Assembly: GCA_902599405.1 (NCBI GenBank)
Contig: CACKFO010000001.1
Span: 1 to 64,000 of the forward strand
Source: an uncultured Alphaproteobacteria bacterium
GTDB taxonomy: Bacteria; Pseudomonadota; Alphaproteobacteria; HIMB59
Reading direction: 5' to 3'
Length of the DNA: 64,000 bases
The notes beneath the pieces were generated by a model. The model did not search any database. It was not told the DNA's origin and worked only from the letters and a program-made list of their open reading frames with translations. The translations under genes and the position numbers were made by a program. Position 1 is the stretch's first letter; each line of letters begins with the position of its first letter. Positions 58,218 through 60,890 of the stretch are shown here, piece by piece.

Positions 58218-59036
58218 TTATTTTTGTAAAGCAGGTGAAAAAAAAGTTGAACGCCCATTTTGGATGATTTTTTTTACCTTATAGGTCTTTTTTTTGTATA
58301 TAACATGTTTCTTTTGATAAACCTTAAATAAGCTTTGAAAACTTCCGAGGGTTCCATCTGGGGATTTATAATCATTTATTGAAGAGCCACCATTTTTTAA
58401 AGATAATTTCAATACAAATTTACAAGAGCTTAATAACTTAGATATTTCAGCTTTTTTAAGTGTGTGTGTAAGTCTTTGAGGATTTAACCTTGAGTGAAAA
58501 AGAGCCTCATTAGCGTATATGTTTCCAATACCCACTATTAAACTTTGATCTAGGAGAGCTTGTTTCAAAGAAATTTTTTTCTTTATAAGTATATTGTATA
58601 TCTTATTTAAATTAACCTTATTAATTAGTAAATCAGTGCCGTAGTTATTAAAAAAAAATTTAACTTCTTTTGAATCTTTAAGTCTAAAAAACATGCCAAA
58701 CCTACGAGGATCATTAAAAATAATTTTAAATTCGTTAAATTGCAGAACAACATGATCATGTTTTTCTTTTTTATAATTCTCGTTTGAATAAAACTTTAAT
58801 CGACCGCTCATTCCCAAATGAATAATTATGTAATTATCATTTTCTAATCCTATGATTATATATTTTGCAAAACGTTCAACAGATATAATTTTTTTCTGTG
58901 ATATTTGCTCAAGATCTTGAAAGTTTAAATTTTTCCTTAGTTTTTTTTGTGACCTATTGATAGAAATAATTTTTTTTCCTTTAACTTTTGACTTTAAATA
59001 TCTTATTGTGGTTTCTACTTCAGGTAATTCAGGCAT
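58218..59036 (-). CDS. mutM: formamidopyrimidine-DNA glycosylase
   Basis: A 272-residue Fpg/MutM enzyme that removes 8-oxoguanine. The start MPELPEVETT fixes the start codon because Pro2 becomes the catalytic residue. Lys in HLGMSGRLKF and the H2TH region (LIVGIGNIYANEALF) are clear. The C-terminal zinc finger is unusual: I see VYQKKHVIYKKKTYKVKKIIQNGRSTFFSP, in which the usual four cysteines are missing. Its ATG overlaps the ubiE ATG on the opposite strand (shared CATG). Confidence 0.93.
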   Translation of the reverse strand: MPELPEVETTIRYLKSKVKGKKIISINRSQKKLRKNLNFQDLEQISQKKIISVERFAKYIIIGLENDNYIIIHLGMSGRLKFYSNENYKKEKHDHVVLQFNEFKIIFNDPRRFGMFFRLKDSKEVKFFFNNYGTDLLINKVNLNKIYNILIKKKISLKQALLDQSLIVGIGNIYANEALFHSRLNPQRLTHTLKKAEISKLLSSCKFVLKLSLKNGGSSINDYKSPDGTLGSFQSLFKVYQKKHVIYKKKTYKVKKIIQNGRSTFFSPALQK

Positions 59037-59736
59037 GATAACTAAAAATAATTCAAATCATTATAATATTACAGATATTTTTGAAAATGTATCTCATGCA
59101 AAATATGACTTAATGAACGATATTATGAGTTTTGGCATACATAGACTTTGGAAAAAATATTTTGTTGATCTTGTATTATCAAAACATACTGACAATGAGA
59201 AAATTTTAGACATTGCAAGTGGCAGTGGGGATATTTTTAATTTGCTTCCTATTTCAAAAAATCTTTATGCTTTAGACCCCGTTTCTGAAATGCATAATAT
59301 ATCTAGAAAAAAAAATAGTTCTAAAATAATTAATTACGAAGTTGGTTATGCAGAAAATTTGCCGTATAAGAAAAATTTTTTTCAAATTATAACATGTACT
59401 TACGGTGTAAGAAATTTTAAAAAACGAAAAAATGGTTTTTCTGAGATTTATAGATGTCTTAAAAAAAATGGTTATTTTTTTATTATGGAATTTGGTATTC
59501 CAAAAAGAGATTTATTAAAAAATCCATACAAAAAATTTTTAAAATATGTTTTACCTTTTACCGGTAGCATTATCTCCAATGATAGACATAGTTATAAATA
59601 CTTAGCTGACAGTATTATTTCCTTTCCTAATCAAAATAACCTTCTTAAAGAACTGATAAATACAGGTTTTTCTCATATTAAAACTATTGATTTCATTTCT
59701 GGAGCTAACAGCATATATATAGTGCAGAAAAAATGA
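59035..59736 (+). CDS. ubiE: ubiquinone/menaquinone biosynthesis C-methyltransferase UbiE
   Basis: About 233 residues from the ATG at 59035; the track start at 58957 lies inside fpg. VSHAKYDLMNDIMSFGIHRLWK is the family signature, LDIASGSGDIFNLL is SAM motif I and TYGVRNFKKR the later motif. It C-methylates the quinone ring. The stop overlaps coaC (ATGA). ubiB, which often follows ubiE in alphaproteobacteria, is not here. Confidence 0.93.
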   Translation: MITKNNSNHYNITDIFENVSHAKYDLMNDIMSFGIHRLWKKYFVDLVLSKHTDNEKILDIASGSGDIFNLLPISKNLYALDPVSEMHNISRKKNSSKIINYEVGYAENLPYKKNFFQIITCTYGVRNFKKRKNGFSEIYRCLKKNGYFFIMEFGIPKRDLLKNPYKKFLKYVLPFTGSIISNDRHSYKYLADSIISFPNQNNLLKELINTGFSHIKTIDFISGANSIYIVQKK

Positions 59737-60251
59737 AAATTTTAATAATAATAACAGGGAGTGTTGGCTGTTATAAATCTTTAGATCTAATTCGTGAGTG
59801 CCAAAAAAAAGCTATTGAATATGAAGTTATTGCAACAAAGAACACTTATGAGTTTATTTCTAAACTACTACTTGAAACAATTTCCAATAAGCCAGTGTAT
59901 TCAGAGCTCTTTGATTTGGATATGGAAAAAAAAATTGGTCACATAAAATTAGCACGAGATAATACTCATATTATTGTTTACCCTGCGACAGCAAATATAA
60001 TTTCAAAATTTGCAAAAGGTTTTTGTGATGACCTAGCTCTAACATGTATGATAGCTGCAAACAAACCTATATATTTTGCACCTGCAATGAATAAAGAAAT
60101 GTGGGCTAATCAAATTATTCAAGACAATGTGGACTATTTAAGAAAAATTGGTCATCATTTTATTGGCCCAGATGATGGATCTTTAGCTTGTGGTGAATAT
60201 GGTAGTGGTCGATTAGTTGATCCTAGTGAAATCATTAGTCAACTTAAGTAA
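59733..60251 (+). CDS. coaC: phosphopantothenoylcysteine decarboxylase (CoaC half)
   Basis: A 172-residue flavoprotein: ITGSVGCYKSLDLIREC, catalytic His in IGHIKLAR, YPATANIISKFAKG, the PAMNKEMW substrate loop and CGEYGSGRL. This is exactly the N-terminal half of CoaBC. In most bacteria it is fused to CoaB; here a TAA ends it and CoaB begins in the next codon (TTG). It makes 4'-phosphopantetheine for coenzyme A. Confidence 0.92.
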   Translation: MKILIIITGSVGCYKSLDLIRECQKKAIEYEVIATKNTYEFISKLLLETISNKPVYSELFDLDMEKKIGHIKLARDNTHIIVYPATANIISKFAKGFCDDLALTCMIAANKPIYFAPAMNKEMWANQIIQDNVDYLRKIGHHFIGPDDGSLACGEYGSGRLVDPSEIISQLK

Positions 60252-60890
60252 TTGAAACACGCATTAATAACTATTGGGTGCACTCGAGAGTATATAGATC
60301 CAGTAAGATATATATCAAATGAGTCATCAGGTCGGCAAGGCATAGCTTTAATAAAAAGCCTATTAAAATTTAATTATAAAGTTATTTGTTTACACGGATA
60401 TCTTCAAACAAAACAAATAGTCTCAAAAAATGTTAAGTTTATCTTCACTCCTACAGCAGATGAAATGTTAAGAGAAGCAAAAAAATATAAGTCTATCGAC
60501 TTAGGAATTTTTAATGCTGCGGTAAGTGATTATAAAGCTAAAAAATATAATAAACTGAAAATTAAGAAAAAAAATGGACTGTCTTTAAAATTAACCAATA
60601 ACCCTGATATTTTAAGATCAATGTCATTTGGTAAATATAAACCTAAAGTTACAGTCGGATTTGCTTATGAAACAAATGATGTATTTAAAAATGCAAAAAA
60701 AAAATTGCTTTCCAAAAATTGTGATTATCTAGTTTTGAACTTTCCAACAGCAGAAGATAAAATTTTTAATTCAAAATACAATAATGGTATTTTAATTGGA
60801 AGATCAGGTGACTTTTTAAATTTAGGAAATGTAACTAAAACAATTTTTGCAAATAAAATTGTTAAATACATTAGCAATAGAAAGAATTAG
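60252..60890 (+). CDS. coaB: phosphopantothenate--cysteine ligase (CoaB half)
   Basis: A 212-residue protein starting at TTG: TIGCTREYIDPVRYISNESSGRQG is the diagnostic N-terminus of CoaB, followed by NAAVSDYKAKKY and LTNNPDIL. It condenses phosphopantothenate with cysteine using CTP. It begins directly after the CoaC stop, the same reading frame, so one TAA is all that separates the two. It may form the CoaB/CoaC complex as separate chains. Confidence 0.92.
   Translation: MKHALITIGCTREYIDPVRYISNESSGRQGIALIKSLLKFNYKVICLHGYLQTKQIVSKNVKFIFTPTADEMLREAKKYKSIDLGIFNAAVSDYKAKKYNKLKIKKKNGLSLKLTNNPDILRSMSFGKYKPKVTVGFAYETNDVFKNAKKKLLSKNCDYLVLNFPTAEDKIFNSKYNNGILIGRSGDFLNLGNVTKTIFANKIVKYISNRKN

Follow-up and report, generated by a model that had tools for sequence, protein, structure and literature searches.

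Two divergent genes of an uncultured marine HIMB59 alphaproteobacterium of low GC content, fpg (mutM) and ubiE, begin within the same four nucleotides, a CATG that holds both ATG start codons, and this arrangement is conserved throughout the source genus. We consider it probable (roughly 0.75) that this zero-spacer pair, which belongs to a streamlined genome, is served by ordinary promoters embedded in the coding sequence of the partner gene. Divergent genes are usually assumed to require spacer DNA for two promoters; fpg and ubiE look like a genuine minimum (−2 nt), genus-wide and also present in a second family. As known from its sequence, the pair appears to be a well-supported, unusual, and conserved variant of divergent gene overlap. 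Divergent overlap itself is known and rare, and what is new here is a conserved minimal case with a readable trace of the displaced promoter.

The shared CATG and spacer length in relatives

The window (the whole stretch of DNA analyzed, 64,000 nucleotides) contains fpg, encoding a DNA-formamidopyrimidine glycosylase, at positions 58218 to 59036 of the minus strand (272 aa; N terminus MPELPEVETT) and ubiE, encoding a ubiquinone/menaquinone biosynthesis methyltransferase, at positions 59035 to 59736 of the plus strand (233 aa; N terminus MITKNNSNHYN). With fpg starting at 59036 and ubiE at 59035, the overlap amounts to 2 bp, no spacer is left, and the CATG occupies positions 59034 to 59037. Fpg, with its Met-Pro-Glu N terminus, scored above the NCBIfam fpg cutoffs in a full-length family match beginning at residue 1, while UbiE gave a full-length match to NCBIfam TIGR01934 (200.2 bits versus a curated cutoff of 158.35) and also matched Pfam Ubie_methyltran. 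These are two genuine opposite-strand genes with common 5′ nucleotides, and the first-pass annotation was correct in placing both divergent ATGs in one CATG, with no intergenic DNA between the genes. The source genome comprises 1.26 Mb in 34 contigs, with a GC content of 29 to 32% in the parts read; the HIMB59 family has streamlined genomes of ca. 1.47 Mb, with 30.7% GC and intergenic spacers averaging 2.35 bp (PMC10734472).

From the source genus (HIMB59 family), we recovered 44 distinct fpg/ubiE junctions. The CATG was invariant in all of them, a comparison that had been proposed as a check and that excludes an assembly accident as the source of the overlap, which persisted down to 58% UbiE identity. 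Together with 13 distinct junctions of a second family (f9, to which L180 was assigned), the 44 genus junctions establish that the overlap is conserved in relatives and is not a start miscall. Most of the relatives recovered are represented by single-cell genomes from marine alphaproteobacteria. When the genomes of 84,980 species were scanned for the pattern, 78 candidate loci were returned; 51 proved to be genuine fpg|ubiE pairs with the −2 overlap, every one in a record of alphaproteobacterial type, and the remainder were chance occurrences. The loci with the −2 overlap form two groups, the source genus and the second family, with clearly different UbiE N termini.

The distance between the two genes was 1 nt in 36 of 47 cases in the sister family (f2), and otherwise 3 or 2 to 12 nt; it was 29 to 39 nt in SAR11 (one genus sampled) and ca. 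25 to 90 nt in most other alphaproteobacteria examined, many of them with larger genomes. Read across families, this series suggests a stepwise loss of the spacer, by which the zero-spacer state probably arose from the divergent fpg|ubiE arrangement common among alphaproteobacteria. The presence of a CATG at the fpg start was rejected as a marker of the overlap, being coincidental in 166 of 386 alphaproteobacteria (43%); in the CATG-bearing genomes inspected, the ubiE start was mostly tens of nucleotides off.

In the spacers of many larger-genome alphaproteobacteria, GCTA-type −10-like motifs were observed ca. 5 to 8 nt from both start codons, as in genome G174 (CAT-ggccgac-TGTAGCG ... GGCTATGGT-tcgcagc-ATG), which suggests leaderless divergent transcription of fpg and ubiE in those organisms. 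The SAR11 spacers carry a conserved near-symmetric TATATT/AATATA element (ACTATATT), a candidate bidirectional promoter.

Synonymous constraint at the facing 5′ ends

Without a spacer, each promoter has to sit in the codons of its partner, and synonymous sites there should consequently freeze. We compared codon identity in sequence pairs keeping the same amino acid with the gene-wide expectation for that amino acid, and the significance of constrained windows was obtained by column shuffles (5,000 in the genus and 3,000 in the sister family). Within the genus, fpg codons 10 to 22 (58971 to 59009, the putative ubiE promoter region on the plus strand) showed an excess codon identity of 0.326, compared with 0.112 in the next-best window, a value reached in 0 of 5,000 shuffles. 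Codon identity in this block was 0.9 to 1.0, where 0.49 to 0.85 was expected. Between the block and the start codon, the codons for Pro2, Leu4, Pro5, and Thr9 are freely variable, indicating that the freezing of codons 10 to 22 is no simple general 5′ effect. The best window in ubiE was codons 2 to 14 (59038 to 59076), which hold the candidate fpg promoter on the minus strand, with P values of 0.012 and 0.023 in two runs.

As controls, we used the operon-internal start of coaC, which showed no constrained block (P = 0.52), and SAR11, in which the spacer is present and no constraint was detected at the corresponding places of fpg (P = 0.93) or ubiE (P = 0.68); the sole signal in SAR11 fpg was located in codons 2 to 8, adjoining the spacer. 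In the sister family (gap of 1 to 12 nt), ubiE codons 4 to 16 were constrained (0 of 3,000 shuffles; P < 0.0004), with a hint of constraint on the fpg side (P = 0.066). In the second family, which has the same overlap, ubiE codons 3 to 15 were constrained (P = 0.002), and no freezing was found on the fpg side (P = 0.62). These results support a synonymous constraint at promoter distance that is absent where a spacer exists, strong on the fpg side and moderate on the ubiE side. Constraint on 5′-end codons can also stem from translation initiation.

Candidate promoters and alternative readings

In the reading that we prefer, fpg and ubiE would each be transcribed from an ordinary σ70-type promoter with its core within the first 10 to 25 codons of the partner, the promoters having withdrawn into the facing gene while the spacer was lost. 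We infer the exact promoters, start sites, leader lengths, and face-to-face geometry from the sequence. The ubiE promoter would be the frozen block of fpg codons 10 to 22 (TTTTTTTCCTTTAACTTTTGACTTTAAATATCTTATTGT on the plus strand), in which TTAACT is followed by a 17-nt spacer, TATTGT, and, 25 nt later, the ubiE ATG. The best −10 candidate is TATTGT (59004 to 59009, plus strand), identical in 44 of 44 junctions, although the overlapping alternative TATCTT (58999 to 59004, plus strand) is equally conserved; TTAACT (58981 to 58986, plus strand) is a weak −35 candidate. The ubiE message would have its 5′ end near 59016 to 59017 and a leader of ca. 18 nt with a weak Shine-Dalgarno (SD)-like element, AGGTA (59022 to 59026, plus strand), antisense of the fpg Pro-Glu-Leu-Pro codons (Leu4-Pro5). 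The fpg promoter would lie on the minus strand within ubiE codons 2 to 18, with two candidate −10s. TATAAT (59060 to 59065; Tyr10-Asn11), 23 nt before the fpg ATG and 16 nt from a candidate −35, TTTTCA (59082 to 59087), keeps TAnnnT in 42 of 44 junctions and would place the 5′ end near 59053, giving a leader of ca. 17 nt without an SD. The alternative, TATTTT (59045 to 59050), 8 nt before the ATG, would yield a leaderless message starting at 59036 to 59038.

The candidate −10 and −35 of ubiE each have only four of six consensus positions, σ70-like sites were no more common in a σ70 scan than in shuffles, and no clear −35 consensus was recovered de novo from promoter-proximal genes, only an enrichment of A ca. 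7 nt after the −10. In the source genome, promoter-proximal genes show an enrichment of −10-like hexamers 5 to 24 nt before the start codon, and an SD is missing from 131 of 187 of them. Short, SD-free leaders thus seem normal here, which would leave little leader to fit into the partner.

With −10s at 59004 to 59009 (plus) and 59060 to 59065 (minus), the promoters would face each other, so that the mRNA 5′ ends would be antisense over up to ca. 37 nt, both start codons included. Overlapping antisense 5′ ends of the fpg and ubiE messages are what the embedded-promoter reading predicts, and they probably do overlap. That face-to-face promoters make the mRNAs antisense across both starts (ca. 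20 to 37 nt) and bring the polymerases into collision is a more tentative proposal, possible but rather doubtful. If true, a DNA-repair gene and a quinone-synthesis gene would be locked in mutual interference, and the junction would form a minimal 5′-5′ sense-antisense switch, conserved in the genus and recurring in another divergent pair.

The first-pass annotation had claimed that each promoter must lie within the other gene or that both messages are leaderless. The first part agrees with the frozen fpg codons 10 to 22 and, more weakly, with ubiE codons 2 to 14; the second fails as an alternative, since in leaderless messages the leader and ribosome site go and the promoter stays in the other gene. 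We regard it as unlikely that both messages are strictly leaderless, starting at the A of each ATG from promoters in the partner gene with a transcript overlap of 2 nt. The TATTTT site speaks for this arrangement, as it keeps TAnnnT 8 nt before the fpg ATG in 43 of 44 junctions although UbiE residues change there, as do the GCTA-type motifs near both starts in larger-genome alphaproteobacteria and the frequent occurrence of leaderless messages in other alphaproteobacteria (PMC7566282). However, leaderless pairs should have a −10 ca. 5 to 9 nt before both starts, and whereas the fpg candidate fits (TATTTT, gap of 8), ubiE does not: TAnnnT is absent within 24 nt of its ATG in the window, and its frozen hexamers lie 25 and 30 nt upstream, so that ubiE should have a leader. 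The sequence favors a mixed answer, with a short leader and the weak AGGTA element for ubiE and either the ca. 17-nt leader without an SD or none for fpg.

It is quite improbable that the frozen fpg block, instead of being the ubiE promoter, is an operator or acts within the fpg message through 5′ codon usage or structure. The conserved stretch, ca. 39 nt, is longer than a bare −10/−35 and unique in the genome, which speaks for such an element, but a regulon operator should recur, and we rejected this candidate because a search of the genome allowing up to three mismatches found the block only once. No RNA family was matched (an Rfam search gave subthreshold matches only), and SAR11, which has a spacer, shows no freezing of the equivalent fpg codons. 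Furthermore, the block ends at the hexamers 25 to 30 nt before the ubiE start, and the sequence from there to the start is variable.

Codon offset 0 is the sole position with an ATG, GTG, or TTG in all 44 genus junctions, in agreement with the earlier view that this ATG is the only sensible UbiE start. An in-frame upstream GTG (−27) is present in only 18 of 44, and the next Met found in most junctions (43 of 44) lies 26 codons in (codon 27), within the conserved YDLMND motif. The ubiE ATG keeps its G in 44 of 44 junctions, and the following base is variable (A35, G4, C4, T1). Even granting this GTG and the start misannotations behind database divergent overlaps of over 60 bp (PMC2478687), a true UbiE start elsewhere, with the overlap merely apparent, is extremely improbable in view of the fixed G next to a variable base, an overlap of 2 bp and not a long one, and the lack of any alternative in-frame start common to the genus ahead of codon 27, itself in the catalytic domain. 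UbiE of the source genus has an N terminus (59035 to 59110) ca. 8 to 12 residues shorter than that of its sister-family counterpart (MITKNNSNHYNITDIFENV versus MKKDYNFGYTKVNSKQKTKLVQNVF).

Known systems and a second zero-spacer pair

In order to put this junction into perspective, we compared it with known systems. Divergent (5′-5′) overlapping pairs are, like fpg and ubiE, adjacent opposite-strand genes with overlapping start regions. In one survey, they made up ca. 1% (457) of the well-characterized overlaps, and all 75 of those over 60 bp were misannotated (PMC2478687); their strong underrepresentation has been attributed to a requirement for regulatory DNA upstream of genes (PMC2174442). 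Unlike the divergent overlaps surveyed, that of fpg and ubiE is conserved in a genus and retains a visible trace of the displaced promoter. Bidirectional promoters, with a pseudosymmetric −10, also serve two opposite transcripts from a single short stretch, but their start sites diverge, most often 18 bp apart (PMC12825309), whereas the starts predicted here are ca. 37 bp apart and converging, with the cores in coding sequence. A bidirectional promoter should have overlapping −10s with start sites that diverge by 10 to 25 bp; the candidate −10s here point at each other. The divergent fpg|ubiE pairs of other alphaproteobacteria have the same genes and orientation in many families, but mostly with a spacer of 25 to 90 nt that holds −10-like motifs, compared with −2 nt here. 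Leaderless genes and SD-free genes with short leaders resemble fpg and ubiE in that a canonical leader and ribosome site would not fit outside the partner, although ubiE, unlike leaderless genes, appears to retain a short leader with its weak SD-like element. A literature search turned up no paper in which ubiE and mutM are named as a divergent pair.

In streamlined genomes, even the last spacer may be lost, with the promoter moving into the codons of its partner and freezing them, and such synonymous freezing of embedded promoters would be searchable genome-wide. Within a baseline of 392 kb of the source genome, with genes from a simple ORF caller, 2 of 55 divergent pairs were separated by ≤1 nt, not counting a pair at −89 that is probably a start miscall. 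The second zero-spacer pair (L056, 13585 to 15481; genome contig C1, 133585 to 135481) consists of an rsmI-like methylase gene and a gene for a 358-aa protein without a Pfam match, joined at CATAATG. Its gaps in the genus were 1 nt (24 cases), 0 nt (8 cases), and −2 nt (3 cases), with 7 and 14 nt also found, and both 5′ ends were constrained (P = 0.002 and 0.0007). In L377, a genus member in a single contig of 1,410,127 bases, this pair has a CATG overlap too.

Downstream of ubiE, CoaBC is split: CoaC (59733 to 60251) ends with a TAA, directly followed by CoaB from an in-frame TTG (TAATTG, 60249 to 60252). The 172-codon CoaC with its stop is kept in ca. 42 of 44 genus junctions, so the stop is not a sequencing error.
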